Shown here: piece by piece, positions 21,054 to 27,904 of the stretch
How the letters are laid out: the number at the start of each line of letters is the position of its first letter
How positions within the stretch are numbered: the stretch's first letter is position 1
NCBI GenBank assembly: GCA_019112875.1
Contig: DXIO01000030.1
Coordinates: forward strand, 1 to 64,000
Source: Candidatus Aquabacterium excrementipullorum
GTDB lineage: Bacteria > Pseudomonadota > Gammaproteobacteria > Burkholderiales > Burkholderiaceae_C
Direction: 5' to 3'
Length of the DNA stretch: 64,000 nucleotides
Notes under the pieces: generated by a model
Told to the model about the DNA's origin: nothing
Database searches by the model: none
What the model saw: only the letters and a program-made list of their open reading frames with translations
Program-made: the position numbers and the translations under genes

Positions 21054-22115
21054 TCAATGCGCCAGCGCCAGCGCGGACAGGTGGCCTCGGTACACGTCCA
21101 GCGCGCGGTTGACCATGGTGTGCTCGGTCAGGTGCTGGTCGTAGAAGCGGCGGCCGTTCTCGGCCAGTTGGCGTGCAAAGGCGCGGTCGGCCGCCAGGCG
21201 TGTGATGGCCTGGCCCATTTCGGTGGGTGTGTCGGGTGTGACCACCAGGCCGGTCTGCTCGTGCAGCACCACCTCGGGCATGCCGCCGACGCGAGTGGCG
21301 ATCACGGGCAGGCGGGCCACGAAGGCTTCCGACACGGCCAGCGGCAGGCCTTCGCGGCGCGAGGGCTGCACGTACAGGTCGAAACCCTGCAAGATGCGCT
21401 GCACGTCGGAGCGGAAGCCCAGGTAGGTCACGCGGCCAGGGGTCTGAGGCAGTTGGTGCACCTGTGCGGCGTAGTCGGTGTCATCGGCACCGATCAGGTA
21501 CAGGCGCACCTTGGGGTCGCTCACCTCGGCCAGCGCGCGCACCAGCACGTCCTGCCCCTTGTCGCGGATGAAACGGCCGGCATGCACCACCGCGAAGGTG
21601 TCCTCGGGGATGCCCAGTTCCTGGCGGATGGCCTGGCAATCGTGGCGGGGCGCATCGGGCACGCCGGTGTAGATGACAGAGAGCTTGTCTTGCGGGTGGC
21701 CGTATGCGAGCAGGTTGGTCTCGTTGGCTTTGGAGTCCGCGATGATGTGGTCGCAGCGGTCCATGTGCTTGAGCGCGTTGGTGGTGTGCGCGGTGCTGAT
21801 GGCGACCGTGCCGCTCAGGCGACCGGCCCAGCCCGCGTAGTACGAGGCGCGCACCAGGTGGCCATGGATGATGTCTGCCCCCCAGGTCTTGACGAGGCGC
21901 AGCAGCCTGAGGTGCGAGCCGATGTCGTACAGGCCGGTCATGCGCAGGTGCGTGGCCGGGATGCCGTGCTCCTGGCAGGCCTTGCCCAGCCAGGAATCCA
22001 GCGGGCCGGCGAACATCACCTCGTGCCCCTGGGCGATCTGGCCCCGCATCAGGATGATCACGTGGCTCTCGGCACCGCCGTAGCCATGGCTGTGCAGGAC
22101 ATGAAGGATGCGCAT
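21054..22115 (-). CDS. Family 4 glycosyltransferase
   Basis: 353 residues, GT-B fold: MRILHVLHSHGYGGAESHVI start, C-terminal nucleotide-sugar site PSRREGLPLAVSEAFVARLP followed by TRVGGMPEVVLHEQTGLVV. ATG 22115 is preceded by GAGGAAGAAG, a strong ribosome-binding site. Transfers an activated sugar in the cytosol, probably to a lipid-linked or polysaccharide acceptor; acts with the deacetylase that follows directly. Only two genes in this cluster, so a complete polysaccharide pathway must lie elsewhere. Confidence 0.9.
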   Translation of the reverse strand: MRILHVLHSHGYGGAESHVIILMRGQIAQGHEVMFAGPLDSWLGKACQEHGIPATHLRMTGLYDIGSHLRLLRLVKTWGADIIHGHLVRASYYAGWAGRLSGTVAISTAHTTNALKHMDRCDHIIADSKANETNLLAYGHPQDKLSVIYTGVPDAPRHDCQAIRQELGIPEDTFAVVHAGRFIRDKGQDVLVRALAEVSDPKVRLYLIGADDTDYAAQVHQLPQTPGRVTYLGFRSDVQRILQGFDLYVQPSRREGLPLAVSEAFVARLPVIATRVGGMPEVVLHEQTGLVVTPDTPTEMGQAITRLAADRAFARQLAENGRRFYDQHLTEHTMVNRALDVYRGHLSALALAH

Positions 22116-22137
22116 GACTTCTTCCTCGGGAAGGCTG

Positions 22138-22157
22138 GGCGCCCACGGGGGGGCGCC
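22138..22157. repeat. GC-rich palindrome in the glycosyltransferase leader
   Basis: Perfect 7-bp arms GGCGCCC/GGGCGCC around a six-base loop, 22 bp upstream of the glycosyltransferase start. It shares a CCCACGGGGGG core with the GC-rich palindrome downstream of the parC start region near 36965-36980, suggesting a dispersed intergenic repeat. Confidence 0.4.
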
Positions 22158-22187
22158 TGTTTCTGAATGTAAACAGCCTACGCGAAT

Positions 22188-22238
22188 AAGTCATAAATGA
22201 TTGTCATTCTCGGTTAATTCGATCATTTGTTATGACTT
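22188..22238. promoter_or_regulatory. Long inverted repeat, candidate operator
   Basis: Perfect 9-bp arms AAGTCATAA (22188-22196) and TTATGACTT (22230-22238). Inside them a second matching pair, ATGATT (22197-22202) and GATCAT (22220s), keeps the symmetry with a 3-base offset. It sits in an AT-rich island in the 344-bp gap between the divergent glycosyltransferase and the Tat-amidase genes. Arm centres are about 42 bp apart, roughly four helical turns. It could bind a dimeric regulator; the AraC-amidase fusion is the nearest candidate. The rest of the gap shows a TTGACA at 22304 without a fitting -10. Confidence 0.5.
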
Positions 22239-22459
22239 GATTCAGCCGGGACTCAGGGGGCATTCACCGGGCCGGTGGCGGGATCTGCCTTGCTGAACAG
22301 AGATTGACAAGCATTTGTGCGCGCCTGGACAAGGCCTTCGACGGGCCTGCAGCGAATAATTTCTTCGCACCCCATCCGCTGCTTCCACAGACGTACAGAC
22401 CTTTTCAGAGAAAGGCCTGAGGGGGTGCTCATCCCTTCAAAACCCTTTCAAAAGGATTC

Positions 22460-23917
22460 ATGGCCATGTCCAGCCACATCTGCGGTCCCGGTTGTTCCCA
22501 CGGCGTCACGCCCGCGGCAGAGAAAGACATCAAGGAAGAGTTCAAGGTTGCGCGGCGCTCGTTCCTGCGCGACGCGATGGCCGCCAGCGGCGCCGCCGTG
22601 TCGGCCGGGGCGCTGACCGCGTCGATGTCGCCCAGCGCCTTCGCGCAGAGCGCCAAGCCCGGCTCGGGCATGACCAGCCACTACTACATCCCGGCCAGCG
22701 CCAACACCGTGCTGTGGGGCTACTTCAGCAAGTCGGCCAAGCCGGTGGTCGAGGTGGAATCGGGCGATTTCGTCACCATCGAGACGCTGACCCACCACGC
22801 CAACGACGATGCCGAGCGCATGGTCAAGGGCGATGCGGGTGCCGAAAGCGTCTTCCACTGGGACAGCAAGAAAAAGGGCGTGAACCGCCGCGGTGCCGGC
22901 CCCATGGACGCCAAGGTGGGCGCCGGTGGCGGCGAAGGCGTGCACATCTGCACCGGGCCCGTCTACATCAAGGGCGCAGAGCCCGGCGACATCCTCGAGG
23001 TACGCATCATCGACTGCGTGCCCCGTCCCAGCGCCAACCCCCTGTACAAGGGCCGCTCCTTCGGCAGCAACGCCGCCGCCAACTGGGGCTTCCACTACGG
23101 TGACACGCTGACTGAGCCCAAGAAGCGGGAGGTCGTCACCATCTACGAGGTGGACGCCACCGGCGAGCGCAACTGGGCCCGCGCCGTCTACAACTACAAG
23201 TGGACGCCGCAGACCGATCCCTTCGGCGTGGTGCACCCCACCATCGACTACCCCGGCGTGCCGGTGGACCACCGCACCATCACCAAGAACGAGAACGTGC
23301 TCAAGAACATCCGCATCCCGGTGCGGCCGCACTTCGGCACCATGGGCGTGGCCCCGGCCGAGGCGGAGTTCGTCACCTCGATCCCGCCCAACTACACCGG
23401 CGGCAACATCGACAACTGGCGCATCGGCAAAGGCGCGACCCTCTACTACCCGGTGGCCGTGAAGGGCGCGATGTTCTCGGTGGGCGATCCGCACGCCTCG
23501 CAAGGCGATTCGGAACTGTGTGGCACGGCCATCGAGTGTTCGCTCACCGGCACCTTCCAGCTGATCCTGCACAAGAAGGCCGACCTGCCCAGCACGCCGC
23601 TGGCCGAGCTGAACTACCCGCTGCTGGAAACGCAGGACGAATGGCTGCTGCATGGCTTCAGCTACGCCAACTACCTGGCCGAGCTGGGCCCGGGCGCGCA
23701 GAAGGACATCTACGGCAAGTCGTCGGTCGACAAGGCCCTGCGCGATGCGTATCACAAGATGCGCCACTTCCTGATGACCACGCAGAACCTCAGCGAGGAC
23801 GAGGCCATCTCGCTGATGTCCATCGCGGTGGACTTCGGCATCACGCAGGTGGTCGATGGCAACTGGGGTGTGCACGCGCTGGTCAAGAAGAGCATCTTCC
23901 CGGCGCGCGGCACCTGA
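22460..23917 (+). CDS. Acetamidase/formamidase with Tat signal
   Basis: 485 residues. The N terminus has a Tat-type signal: VARRSFLRDAMAASGAAVSA (twin Arg at residues 32-33), with likely cleavage near FAQSA about residue 60. A hydrophilic CGPGCSHG stretch precedes it. The rest is an acetamidase/formamidase (FmdA/AmdA family) domain: RRGAGPMDAKVG, HICTGPVYIKGAEPGD, and SVGDPHASQGDSELCGTAIE. The family hydrolyses formamide or short aliphatic amides to ammonia and acid; most known members are cytosolic, so export is notable. AAAAGGA precedes ATG 22460. It is 51 bp before the AraC-amidase fusion gene and closely similar to that protein's C-terminal half. Confidence 0.9.
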   Translation: MAMSSHICGPGCSHGVTPAAEKDIKEEFKVARRSFLRDAMAASGAAVSAGALTASMSPSAFAQSAKPGSGMTSHYYIPASANTVLWGYFSKSAKPVVEVESGDFVTIETLTHHANDDAERMVKGDAGAESVFHWDSKKKGVNRRGAGPMDAKVGAGGGEGVHICTGPVYIKGAEPGDILEVRIIDCVPRPSANPLYKGRSFGSNAAANWGFHYGDTLTEPKKREVVTIYEVDATGERNWARAVYNYKWTPQTDPFGVVHPTIDYPGVPVDHRTITKNENVLKNIRIPVRPHFGTMGVAPAEAEFVTSIPPNYTGGNIDNWRIGKGATLYYPVAVKGAMFSVGDPHASQGDSELCGTAIECSLTGTFQLILHKKADLPSTPLAELNYPLLETQDEWLLHGFSYANYLAELGPGAQKDIYGKSSVDKALRDAYHKMRHFLMTTQNLSEDEAISLMSIAVDFGITQVVDGNWGVHALVKKSIFPARGT

Positions 23918-23968
23918 TGCACTCGCAGGTCACGAGGCATTGGCACAGCGCTCGCTTGCACGGAGCCC

Positions 23969-26428
23969 ATGATGCTCAATGATCTGCGACGCTTTTCCAC
24001 CAGCGCCTTTCCGGACAAGCTGCGCCAAGCGGCCTGGTCGGAGGTGCTGGAGAAAGTACTGCTCAGCAGCGGCCCGGCGAACCCCTCGATGCCACCGCTG
24101 GACGGGCACGTGTCCAGCAGCACCTCGGCGCTGGAATCGGTGTTCGTCAAGCTCAGCGCCTCGCCGCAGGTGCTGGTGCCCCACTCCGCCAACGCGCGCC
24201 GGTACGGCCATGCCGTGCTGGTGCTGGCCGTGCTCGATGGCAGTGGTCTGGTGGCCGATGCCGACGAGACGCTGGCCTTGTCACCCGGCGACATCCTGGT
24301 GCTGGACCCGGCGCGCGCCTGGCGGGTCGAGCTGAACACCGATTTCCGTGCCGTGATCGCACGGCTGGAATCGGCCAGCTTCATCCTGCGCCTGGTGCGC
24401 ACCTGCGGGCAGGAGCTCAACAAGATCGACACGCAGGCGGGGGTCGGTGCCGTTTGCCTGACGCTGGTGCGCGCCATCGCCGATGAGCTCGAGCACCTGG
24501 GTCGCCATGAATTGCCGCCACTGGAAGCGACGCTGACCGAGTTGCTGGTGGCCTGCCTCTCGCGTCAGGAGCACCGCGCGCAGGCTGGCCAGACGGAGGA
24601 CAGCACCTCCGTGCAACTGGGCCACCTGCGCCGCGTGTGCCGCGCCATCGAATCGCGCCTGGGCGACGCCGAGTTGCAGATCGATGACATCGGCCGCCTG
24701 GAGGACCTGTCCACCCGCTACATCCAGAAGCTGTTCCAGGTGGGCTCGACCACCTTCAGCGACTACCTGAAATCACGACGGCTGGAGCGCTGCCGGCTGG
24801 ACCTGGCCAACCCGGCGCTGGGCCACATCACCATCTCGGAACTCTGTTTCAGATGGGGCTTCAAGGATGCGGCGCATTTCAGCCGGGCGTTCAGCGCGCG
24901 CTATGGCGTGTCGCCTCGCGCCTACCGCGCCGAGCCGCGCAGGGACGGAGAAGAGAAACTGCGCCGTGGGCGCCCTGCGCAACCGCCCGCACCCAAGCCC
25001 GCCGCGCGCGAAGAAGGCACGACCGCATCACCCGGTGCAGGCGCCGATGCCCGCCGCAGCCAGTTTCAGAACGTGTTGAGCGACCACGCACGCTACGCCG
25101 TGGCGCTGGCCCTGTCACCCAAACGCGCTGCACCTTTGCCGGGCACCGCCGCATCGCCGGGCGAGCCCCTGCCCAACCATTACTACGTGCCCGTGTCGGA
25201 CAAGACCGTGCACTGGGGCTACTTCAGCCGCAGCATCAAGCCTGTGCTGTCGGTGCGATCAGGCGACATCGTCACCATCGAGACGCTCACGCAGCACGCC
25301 AGCGACGACCGCGAGCGCATGATCGATGGCGACCCGGGCGCCGAAAGCGTCTTTTACTGGACAGCCCGCAAGAAAGCAGTCGATCGCCGCGGCGCCGGCC
25401 CGATGGACGCCTCCATCTACGGCCGTGGTGCCGGCGAAGGCTTCGGCGTGCACATCTGCACCGGCCCTGTCTACGTGCATGGCGCCGAGCCGGGCGATGT
25501 GCTGGAGGTCCGCATTCTGGACATCGTGCCGCGCGCCAGTTGCCACCCGAGCCACCATGGCCGCATCTTCGGCAGCAACGCGGCGGCCTGGTGGGGCTTT
25601 CACTACAAGGACATGCTGACCGAGCCCAAGCAGCGCGAGGTCGTCACCATCTACGAGATCGACCCATCGCCCGAGCAACCGCACGCCAAGGCCGTCTACA
25701 ACTACCGCTGGACGCCACAGACCGATCCCTTCGGCGTGCGCCATGACACCATCGACTACCCCGGCGTGCCGGTGGACCCGGCCACGGTGGAGAAGAAGTA
25801 CGGTGTGCTGGCCAAGGCCCGCGTGCCCATCCGCCCGCACTTCGGCGTGCTGGCCGTGGCCCCGCGTGAGCAAGGCATGGTCGATTCGATCCCGCCCGGC
25901 TACTTCGGCGGCAACCTGGACAACTGGCGCGCCGGCAAGGGCACGCAGCTCTACCTGCCCGTGTCGGCCGAAGGCGCCTTGTTCTCGGTGGGCGATCCGC
26001 ACGCATCGCAGGGCGACTCGGAGGTGTGCGGCACGGCCATCGAGTGCTCGCTGACCGGCGTGTTCCAGTTGGTGCTGCACAAGAAGGCCGATCTGGCCGG
26101 CAGCTTCATGGCCGATCTGCACTACCCCTTCCTGGAAACGCCCAATGAGTGGGTACTGCACGGCTTCAGTTTCTCGGACCACTTCGCCGAGCTGGGGCCA
26201 CAGGCGCAGACCCAGGTCTACCAGAAGTCATCGCTGGACGCGGCCATGCTGGACGCCTTCCGCAAGGCGCGCCACTACCTGATGCAGGCCCACCAGCTCA
26301 GCGAAGATGAAGCCGTGTCGCTGCTGTCGGTGGGCGTGGATTTCGGCATCACCCAGGTGGTCGATGGCAACCTGGGCGTGCACGCGATCATCAAGAAAGC
26401 GCTGTTCCCGGACCTGGCCGAGGGCTGA
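23969..26428 (+). CDS. AraC-family regulator fused to acetamidase/formamidase
   Basis: 819 residues in one uninterrupted frame. Residues about 50-210 resemble the AraC-binding-like (cupin-type) sensor domain (RRYGHAVLVLAVLDGSG, LSPGDILVLDP). Residues about 235-320 are a full AraC/XylS double helix-turn-helix: LEDLSTRYIQKLFQ, TFSDYLKSRRLERC, ITISELCFRWGFKDAAHFSR, YGVSPRAYR. A Pro/Ala/Arg-rich linker follows (about 322-398). Residues about 400-819 are a complete amidase, like its neighbour: NHYYVPVSDKTVHWGY, RRGAGPMDAS, HICTGPVYVHGAEPGD, SVGDPHASQGDSEVCGTAIE. No signal peptide, so cytosolic. I know of no characterised protein with this architecture. Inference: an enzyme that also regulates transcription, perhaps reporting amide supply or turnover, and controlling its own operon. 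Alternative: the amidase part serves only as a ligand sensor. Confidence 0.9.
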   Translation: MMLNDLRRFSTSAFPDKLRQAAWSEVLEKVLLSSGPANPSMPPLDGHVSSSTSALESVFVKLSASPQVLVPHSANARRYGHAVLVLAVLDGSGLVADADETLALSPGDILVLDPARAWRVELNTDFRAVIARLESASFILRLVRTCGQELNKIDTQAGVGAVCLTLVRAIADELEHLGRHELPPLEATLTELLVACLSRQEHRAQAGQTEDSTSVQLGHLRRVCRAIESRLGDAELQIDDIGRLEDLSTRYIQKLFQVGSTTFSDYLKSRRLERCRLDLANPALGHITISELCFRWGFKDAAHFSRAFSARYGVSPRAYRAEPRRDGEEKLRRGRPAQPPAPKPAAREEGTTASPGAGADARRSQFQNVLSDHARYAVALALSPKRAAPLPGTAASPGEPLPNHYYVPVSDKTVHWGYFSRSIKPVLSVRSGDIVTIETLTQHASDDRERMIDGDPGAESVFYWTARKKAVDRRGAGPMDASIYGRGAGEGFGVHICTGPVYVHGAEPGDVLEVRILDIVPRASCHPSHHGRIFGSNAAAWWGFHYKDMLTEPKQREVVTIYEIDPSPEQPHAKAVYNYRWTPQTDPFGVRHDTIDYPGVPVDPATVEKKYGVLAKARVPIRPHFGVLAVAPREQGMVDSIPPGYFGGNLDNWRAGKGTQLYLPVSAEGALFSVGDPHASQGDSEVCGTAIECSLTGVFQLVLHKKADLAGSFMADLHYPFLETPNEWVLHGFSFSDHFAELGPQAQTQVYQKSSLDAAMLDAFRKARHYLMQAHQLSEDEAVSLLSVGVDFGITQVVDGNLGVHAIIKKALFPDLAEG

Positions 26429-26443
26429 AGCCGCTGCGCCAGC

Positions 26444-27745
26444 TCACTTGCCGTGCAGATCGCCCACAGGTTTGAGCCAGCGGGGCGCCTGCTCGCTCAG
26501 CCAGTTGCGCGCCAAGGCATCGTCCTGCAGCCAGGCGTCCAGGAAGGCGATGCTCACCGTGGTCACGGCGGCGCGCTGCATGGCCTGCTGAGTGGGCGAC
26601 ACAGCACGGCCCTCCCTGGATCCGCCGGGACCACCGCGGCCACCCGGACCGCCGCCATGGCCGCCACCACCGCCAGACCCCCCCATGCCGCCGCCCCTGC
26701 CACCACGGCCACCGCCGGGCGGCAAGCCACCACCCGATCCGCCGGGACCATCGGCTCCATCGCCGTCACCGCCCGGGCCGCTGCCTTCAGCGCCCCCTTT
26801 GCCGCCGGGGCCTGCGCCTTGCCGGCCGCCGACGTCACCGTCGCCCCCCAAACGCTCGCGTCCTTCGCGGCCACCCAGGTCATCATGGCTGGCGCCGCCC
26901 AGCATCAGCATGAACTTCTGCCCGGCCGGCATGCCCCCAAAGGGCGCCGTGCGCAGGTAGGAGGCCGACACCAGCCCGAATGGGTCCGTGTCCCGGTCGG
27001 AGGTGATGGTGAGGATGGGGGCGTTCAGATCCGCATAACGCGTGTCGAAGCCGCCCTGGCTGAAGCTCGCATACGGGCTCAGCCAGATGAAGGCCTTGAA
27101 GGCCCCGGCCAGCGTGGAGGCGGACGCCTCGCGCATGTGGTTCACGTGTTCGCCCGCGGCCCACTGGGCGGTGTAGGCACCCAGGTCGTAGCCGGCCAAG
27201 GCCGCCAGCTTGAGGTTCACGCGCTGCAGCCCGGGCTCGCCGGCCGCCTGGGCCCGGGTCAGATCGGCCATGAGCTGGGCCAGCAGATTGGTGCGCTGCT
27301 GCAAGGCATCGCTGGCGAAACGCTGGCTGGCCCATTGGCGCAGATCCCCTTGAGGGCGCTGTTCGTCGTCTGGCAGTGCCTGCCACGACAGCACCGCGTA
27401 GCCCGCCTGTGCGAGCGCGTTGCGCCAGGACTCGTTGGCCAAGGCGTCCTGTCCGGCCCCGGGCAGGTAGACCACCAGCGGATGCGGCCCGGCCTGCTGG
27501 GGCCGCGTCCACACCAGGCGGAAGGGGCGGCCCTGCACCACCCTGAGTTCATCCACCTGGCTGACGGGATACTGATGAGCCGCCGGGTAGCCCTTGGCCT
27601 CGAACTGCTGCACGCGCGCGGGATCCAGCTTGGGCACCTGCCGCTCGGGGCCGGCGCAGGCTACCAAGCCTGCCACCGACACCGCCATGGCGATGCGACG
27701 GACCGCCGCGCCGATCCTCACGGGCCGGTCGGCCGTCATCGTCAT
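26444..27745 (-). CDS. Lipoprotein alpha/beta hydrolase-like protein with Gly-rich insert
   Basis: 433 residues from ATG 27745 (ATG 27739 and 27775 are alternatives). Lipoprotein signal: basic n-region (RPVRIGAAVRR), hydrophobic IAMAVSVAGLVAC with lipobox LVAC. The body looks like an alpha/beta hydrolase: LVVYLPGAGQ, ALAGYDLGAYTAQ in place of a nucleophile elbow (GYDLG, Asp where Ser is usual), LTITSDRDTDPF, and GGASHDDLGG. About 90 residues rich in Gly, with Pro, Arg and Asp, follow that His segment, then a normal C-terminal helix. Catalysis is doubtful or uses Asp. Convergent with the AraC-amidase gene, 15 bp apart. Confidence 0.65.
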   Translation of the reverse strand: MTMTADRPVRIGAAVRRIAMAVSVAGLVACAGPERQVPKLDPARVQQFEAKGYPAAHQYPVSQVDELRVVQGRPFRLVWTRPQQAGPHPLVVYLPGAGQDALANESWRNALAQAGYAVLSWQALPDDEQRPQGDLRQWASQRFASDALQQRTNLLAQLMADLTRAQAAGEPGLQRVNLKLAALAGYDLGAYTAQWAAGEHVNHMREASASTLAGAFKAFIWLSPYASFSQGGFDTRYADLNAPILTITSDRDTDPFGLVSASYLRTAPFGGMPAGQKFMLMLGGASHDDLGGREGRERLGGDGDVGGRQGAGPGGKGGAEGSGPGGDGDGADGPGGSGGGLPPGGGRGGRGGGMGGSGGGGGHGGGPGGRGGPGGSREGRAVSPTQQAMQRAAVTTVSIAFLDAWLQDDALARNWLSEQAPRWLKPVGDLHGK

Positions 27746-27904
27746 CTCGGAAAAACGGGGCACGTCGCGCGTCATCACATCGGTCCATCGGAGCACCGCG
27801 CAAGGTGCGGCCTGCGCATGCTGGGCCGGCGACGTAAAGCGCCGATGTCGGGGAGGTTAAGGAATGCTGGCGACGCCAGCAGCCCTGCTTGGAGCCACGG
27901 GCCC

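Follow-up and report, generated by a model that had tools for sequence, protein, structure and literature searches.

The window, by which we mean the whole stretch of 64,000 nucleotides that was analyzed, carries on its plus strand one uninterrupted open frame for an 819-residue protein, in which an AraC-type transcription regulator is joined to an acetamidase/formamidase domain. The fusion gene starts 51 bp downstream of, and on the same strand as, the gene for a stand-alone amidase paralogue, which is its probable target and is itself preceded by an operator-like direct repeat and a -10-like element. The features are given below with the basis of each assignment in brackets.

22306-22333, plus strand: operator-like site with a 22-bp direct repeat, consisting of GACAAG (22306-22311), TTTGTGCG (22314-22321) and GACAAG (22328-22333) (matrix score, genome pattern search)
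22355-22360, plus strand: AATAAT, -10-like element separated from the second half-site by 21 bp (comparison of upstream regions)
22460-23917, plus strand: stand-alone amidase paralogue, 485 residues, with an extended N-terminus and a Tat-like signal, ARRSFLRDA...AFA (Pfam, identity, motif read from the sequence)
23969-26428, start possibly 23972, plus strand: AraC-amidase fusion, 819 residues (open frame, Pfam, alignment with relatives)
24155-24559, plus strand: AraC_binding_2 sensor domain, residues 63-197 (Pfam)
24707-24931, plus strand: AraC helix-turn-helix (HTH) region, residues 247-321 (Pfam)
24944-25168, plus strand: linker, residues 326-400, which holds RGxP (alignment of fusions)
25169-26413, plus strand: acetamidase/formamidase domain, residues 401-815 (Pfam, 3b9t alignment, residue conservation)
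25292-25294, plus strand: codon of Q442 (alignment of fused and stand-alone amidases)
25991-26023, plus strand: signature GDPHASQGDSE, residues 675-685 (3b9t alignment, residue conservation)

Domain architecture of the fusion

A sequence-only reading of this DNA had proposed that an AraC regulator and a complete amidase domain with its conserved motifs share a single frame, and had suggested a domain search for the AraC-type HTH and FmdA_AmdA families. Both families match, and all Pfam domains of the fusion exceed their gathering scores. The regulator part contains a known AraC-type N-terminal domain (AraC_binding_2, 40.6 bits against a cut-off of 27) and closes, as AraC/XylS family members do, with an HTH region recognized by both HTH_18 (residues 247-321, 59.4 bits against 33.6) and HTH_AraC (residues 287-320, 34.4 bits against 26.6). 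FmdA_AmdA matches at 89.8 bits (cut-off 27) in two stretches, the better one covering residues 640-799, and the amidase half aligns with PDB entry 3b9t over residues 387-815 (E 3.7e-195) with the GDPHASQGDSE signature intact; given the span of this alignment, the amidase domain is whole, as had been claimed. At the level of individual functions, the best equivalog match is FeaR (NF007243), whose 98.4 bits lie far below the cut-off of 199, and the FmdA formamidase equivalog (NF045496) reaches 53.3 bits against a cut-off of 500. The start codon may be the second methionine of the frame (23972), because the relatives L007 and L009 have their first methionine there; only methionine starts were weighed.

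Between the two halves, R333, G334 and P336 are invariant across 36 aligned fusions, and the rest of the linker varies in length. In the window the motif reads RGRP (24965-24976, residues 333-336), which we take to be similar to an AT-hook core. Two other readings of the linker were considered and set aside. A worn-down Tat signal was suggested by the resemblance of ARRSQF in the window to ARRSFL in the stand-alone enzyme, but the pattern is not conserved in other fusions; an internal start yielding a separate amidase finds no methionine, the only start considered, between residues 326 and 404 of the window sequence. Downstream of the fusion, a 450-residue frame on the minus strand (26444-27796) is rich in glycine over a long tract of its C-terminal part, and Pfam gives no match to it at E 0.001.

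The stand-alone amidase (FmdA_AmdA, 106.5 bits) shares 67% identity with the fused domain where the two align. Within 22460-22560 its reading frame also shows a Cys/His motif, HICGPGCSHG, ahead of the twin-arginine motif, and many partner enzymes have H[IV]C...C motifs like it.

Distribution and selection

The sequence-only reading would have been undermined had only this one genome carried the fusion. The taxonomic search contradicts that possibility: the 41 fused frames analyzed come from Beta-, Gamma- and Alphaproteobacteria. An open fused frame is present in 6 of 61 near genomes, the window's own among them, where the class with no fusion found includes incomplete genomes; the other five, all of the genus, encode fusions with 56-94% identity to that of the window. 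When the AraC half was searched against 42 genomes of the genus, 7 showed a fused-length open frame, the eighth match (G036) being unfused; the fusion is limited to a minority of the genus. In even samples drawn from larger groups it occurs in 8 of 398 genomes of the phylum and 2 of 399 of the order, the window's own counted in both, and a contig search with the AraC half, in which 80 of 135 relatives were kept, found a fused frame in 25 of the 80 loci, with one cut by a contig end. Hosts include Aquabacterium, Leptothrix, Methylibium, Piscinibacter, Variovorax, Delftia, Herminiimonas, Oxalicibacterium, Pseudomonas, Paraburkholderia and Sphingomonas. Judged by its relatives, the window itself probably belongs to Aquabacterium.

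A match was present in 45 plasmid records, and in 13, among them records of Caballeronia, Rhizobium, Sinorhizobium and Novosphingobium, it covers at least 80% of the query; six of these 13 (H1, H5, H8 and H10-H12) lie outside the analyzed set. The annotated plasmid examples within that set bear the name ‘acetamidase/formamidase family protein’. On a Rhizobium johnstonii plasmid (L119, 8286-10695), a hypothetical protein is followed by a coding sequence with only the later AraC part and the amidase, possibly a split fusion.

For the comparisons below, the amidase halves and the AraC halves each form a set of 41 fused rows, and all members but one are shared: L088, which runs into the end of its contig, is without a full amidase half, and L119 is without a full AraC half. 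The amidase halves of L055 and L120 are identical, G802 was left out of the trees, and L036, L037, L038, L039 and L057 are taken as the same genomes as G015, G025, G004, G010 and G012, respectively.

When the window is compared with its two nearest relatives, NG86 dN/dS ranges from 0.046 to 0.157 in the sensor, HTH, linker and amidase regions, and over all seven pairs tested from 0.046 to 0.393; the lowest dN of the four regions falls in the amidase in four pairs and in the HTH in the other three. By this codon-level measure, purifying selection is acting on all regions of the fusion, linker included. An assembly accident is an unlikely origin because five more genomes of the genus have open fused frames and dN/dS is low everywhere.

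Origin and residues of the fused amidase domain

A quick tree of 137 amidase domains sets the 41 fused ones apart on one side of a single branch (SH-aLRT 98), with one label change required, and their clade adjoins 43 stand-alone enzymes, Tat-type ones among them. Partner amidases occupy three parts of this tree: the Tat-type enzymes, annotated members encoded beside amino-acid ABC transporters, and a remote kind at 38-40% identity. The fused domain is derived from the same enzyme subfamily as the putative target. A single origin does not emerge from the AraC half, whose tree, likewise of the quick kind, does not recover the fused rows as one clade and needs three label changes, with one clade not rejected (AU p 0.094). 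Among the unfused AraC relatives, 33 of 60 adjoin an amidase gene; these come mostly from Caulobacteraceae, and in most of them araC follows the amidase gene.

A stand-alone amidase lies within the analyzed stretch in 30 of the 41 fused loci, five of these enzymes being of the remote kind; among the loci without one, several analyzed stretches are short. Six genomes or records were searched further, and five hold another amidase copy, only a remote one in two of them. In G523, no close amidase besides the fusion was found in the genome.

The FmdA_AmdA signature (GGN.D, GD.H...GD.E) is present in the fused domain: all 41 copies keep N649, D651, H678, D683 and E685, and 40 keep D676 and G682; from this conservation we read the seven as the catalytic or metal residues. 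At position 442, histidine occurs in all 56 close stand-alone enzymes and in 38 of the 40 distant ones, and glutamine in 39 of 41 fusions, the fusion pair L058/L162 having retained histidine; the fusions accordingly lack the first His of a THH motif, a criterion of our own that is unpublished. G629 is replaced by alanine in 37 of 41, and of 142 positions at least 97% conserved in the 56 close stand-alone enzymes, 16 are kept in less than 80% of fusions. As judged from these alignments, the signature is under selection, yet the fused clade has departed from the enzymes at otherwise fixed sites, and since H442 has become glutamine in 39 of 41 copies despite the kept signature, catalysis may be altered or lost.

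A conserved operator-like site

Comparison of the regions upstream of 18 partner amidases revealed a shared pattern, GACAAG-N2-TTTGTGCG-N6-GACAAG. The window's copy, which precedes the stand-alone amidase, is the best site in the 64 kb, scoring 24.6 against 11.9 for the next with a matrix built from nine other loci and the window excluded. Ten of the 18 regions held the site by a simple pattern and made up the first matrix; in leave-one-out scoring the site ranks first in its own locus for all ten. Among the other eight regions, the same matrix places the site first in L037, L048, L054, its near-copy L055, and L057; it comes second in L051, L053 and L056, where a different site of the locus scores higher. 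With a later matrix, to which 14 of the 18 regions supplied sites and L051, L053 and L056 supplied none, a site scoring at least 19.6 lies upstream of all 18 partner amidases examined.

At genome scale, the window's genome holds exactly one site at up to three mismatches. In the six fusion genomes of the 61, the site stands before the partner amidase at 0, 0, 0, 1, 2 and 3 mismatches, on a different contig from the fusion in G010 and G015. At two mismatches or fewer it is found in five of these six versus none of 55 relatives without a detected fusion, seven of which match it, all at three mismatches; the reversed control pattern gives 13 matches in nine genomes. This co-occurrence test is not fully independent, since the search pattern was drawn partly from tested genomes, having been built from sites that include two fusion genomes (the window and L038 = G004) after L037 = G025 had been seen.

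Sites outside the matrix came from five further genomes, in which the best site scores 20.9-27.3, the second best at most 16.8 and shuffled sequence at most 14.5. It lies 77-80 bp before a gene for a solute-binding protein (SBP_bac_3) in a transporter-amidase-fusion cluster; since four of the five genomes belong to one genus, the number of independent cases is perhaps two. Across loci L058-L115, a site above 14 occurs in 24 of 58 versus 2 of 58 shuffles, in a set that includes the fused loci L058, L061 and L088, of which L061 had supplied a training site; the shuffles here and for the five genomes kept base composition only. Weak sites (14.9-17.6) occur in L058, L117, L141 and L161, the plasmid loci L160, L162 and L163 reach only 10.3 at best, and some unfused AraC relatives also have a similar site.

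The sequence-only reading had tied the fusion to amide-degrading genes and named 22116-22459 as DNA that it might bind. That stretch does contain the operator-like site, and the presence of a conserved AraC-type operator-like site before such genes bears out the proposed tie, so far as comparison of genomes can; we regard a DNA link between the fusion and amide-degrading genes as well supported. Further upstream, the window also has an inverted repeat, AAGTCATAA ... TTATGACTT (22188-22238), which was not seen in the upstream region of Aquabacterium soli (L037).

Putative promoter position and genes behind the sites

AATAAT lies at exactly 21 bp in 6 of the 18 upstream regions, the window included; ACACT takes the same register in 7, and neither is present in 5. 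A -35 element set 17 bp before AATAAT would overlap the second half-site by two bases. A scan of 22000-27000 for sigma-70 consensus promoters found none, and the putative promoter before the stand-alone amidase rests on the comparison of relatives.

The genes that follow the sites differ among hosts. On Rhizobium, Caballeronia and Paraburkholderia plasmids they are ABC transporter genes, with a weak site in R. tumorigenes; in L053 a porin gene follows, and elsewhere the site precedes the fusion itself (Herminiimonas, G523). Pseudomonas typographi has two sites in one cluster (L197, 5840-16513), one before amidase and ABC transporter genes and one before nitrile hydratase genes and then the fusion, and in Caballeronia nitrile hydratase genes lie about 6 kb from the fusion. 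In Phenylobacterium (L067, 2701-7945), which has an unfused regulator, the region between a divergent TauD-type gene and a Rieske-LigB-amidase-araC run holds sites. In some hosts the neighboring genes point to nitriles and amides (nitrile hydratase and ABC transporters), and in Phenylobacterium to the oxidation of rings (Rieske, LigB). The theme that the sites have in common appears to be amide uptake and breakdown, to which some hosts add nitriles as upstream substrates.

Proposed mechanism and alternative explanations

The reading we favor, with a probability of about 60%, is that the fusion is a one-component AraC/XylS-type activator of local amide or nitrile catabolism, in which a duplicate of the target enzyme serves as an amide-binding, possibly slowly hydrolyzing effector domain. 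The protein would activate amide catabolic genes and, in some bacteria, nitrile genes as well: a pair of subunits would bind the tandem site, with the second half-site touching the -35 position of the stand-alone amidase promoter in a class-II geometry, and because the fusion gene lies 51 bp behind the amidase on the same strand, it would probably raise its own expression too. The fusion would stay in the cytoplasm, whereas the target amidase in the window is predicted to be exported by the Tat pathway. The sequence-only reading had supposed that substrate binding or turnover could set the expression of amide-degrading genes; most likely, the amidase domain would bind amide that enters the cell and signal the arrival of substrate to the AraC part, perhaps hydrolyzing the amide slowly. 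A bolder version, which we regard as doubtful, is a self-resetting switch, where a live but slowed fused amidase binds the inducer and then destroys it; such a regulator would be on while its amidase copy is occupied and off once the ligand has been hydrolyzed, a timer built by duplicating the controlled enzyme and fusing the copy to its activator.

The basic circuit would not require the amidase domain, as unfused AraC relatives adjoin amidases and a similar site is present in some of them. Since the fusion has an AraC sensor of its own and unfused relatives apparently use a similar site, the amidase domain may act as a second enzyme or as a scaffold, and the AraC part's own sensor domain may be the real receptor. 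If the domain is a second enzyme, the chain would do two jobs, as a regulator with an AraC_binding_2 sensor and as a second cytoplasmic amidase, with no signal between them. We consider this unlikely, if worth serious attention: the five residues kept in every fused domain, the unfused relatives that adjoin separate amidases (33 of 60) and G523, where no close amidase besides the fusion was found and the site precedes the fusion, all speak for two separate functions, but H442 and G629 are changed in nearly the whole fused clade though fixed in close stand-alone enzymes, and in three classes the two halves have remained one chain, often in the presence of a separate amidase.

The H442Q exchange and the other shifts in the fused clade would suit a dead or scaffolding module that multimerizes the regulator and senses nothing, and PDB entries of the family comprise 4 to 8 chains, a hint at multimers (the enzyme itself is presumably multimeric). 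Retention of the signature in 40 or 41 of 41 copies, and an amidase region with the lowest dN in four of seven pairs (HTH in the other three), nonetheless make this quite improbable. That read-through or an assembly artefact joins two separate genes has a negligible chance of being right: amidase-then-araC neighbors do exist unfused, mostly in Caulobacteraceae, and the annotation of one Rhizobium plasmid shows two pieces, but the 41 open frames run from AraC to amidase, the reverse of the unfused gene order, in many genera, and the linker is under purifying selection.

Comparison with known systems

The closest structural reference is 3b9t (FmdA_AmdA, PF03069 subfamily; ‘Twin-arginine translocation pathway signal protein’), which presumably comes from Methylobacillus and with which the whole amidase half of the fusion aligns. 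It is a stand-alone enzyme of 484 residues, whereas the fusion adds an AraC regulator before the domain and, in 39 of 41 cases, glutamine in place of His 442. With AraC/XylS one-component regulators the fusion shares the sensor and the HTH region, and FeaR is the nearest NCBIfam model; the fusion falls far below the FeaR cut-off, however, and it carries a C-terminal enzyme domain. The tandem direct-repeat sites that AraC/XylS regulators bind next to target promoters may have a counterpart in the conserved 22-bp direct repeat, whose position is fitting.

Enzyme folds and DNA-binding domains are combined in one chain in PutA, in Ada and in AraC regulators with DJ-1/PfpI-like domains. The present protein differs from these in that its enzyme domain is a paralogue of the neighboring gene's product, and we know of no enzyme-regulator fusion or trigger enzyme with an acetamidase/formamidase domain. 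The claim that no characterized protein has this domain order holds in so far as our searches of open-licence papers, aimed at the fusion or at regulator-enzyme fusions, returned no description of an AraC-amidase fusion; the architecture itself, however, is not rare in databases.

An excerpt of PMC8955678 presents NitR as an AraC-family regulator encoded with nitrile genes. Nitrile hydratase likewise adjoins the fusion in Pseudomonas typographi and lies about 6 kb off in Caballeronia; NitR, compared here by description rather than by sequence, is not described in that excerpt as fused to an amidase. An AraC activator joined to a paralogue of its probable target enzyme, and accompanied by a putative operator, appears to be an undescribed variant among fusions of enzyme folds with DNA-binding domains. 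If our reading is correct, it would be a clean case of a sensor made by copying the controlled enzyme and welding the copy to its activator. The family offers readable parts for comparison (operator, regulator, partner enzyme and unfused relatives, the last mostly in Caulobacteraceae), so that the step from enzyme to sensor would be directly testable, and it may be a source of amide and nitrile biosensors.
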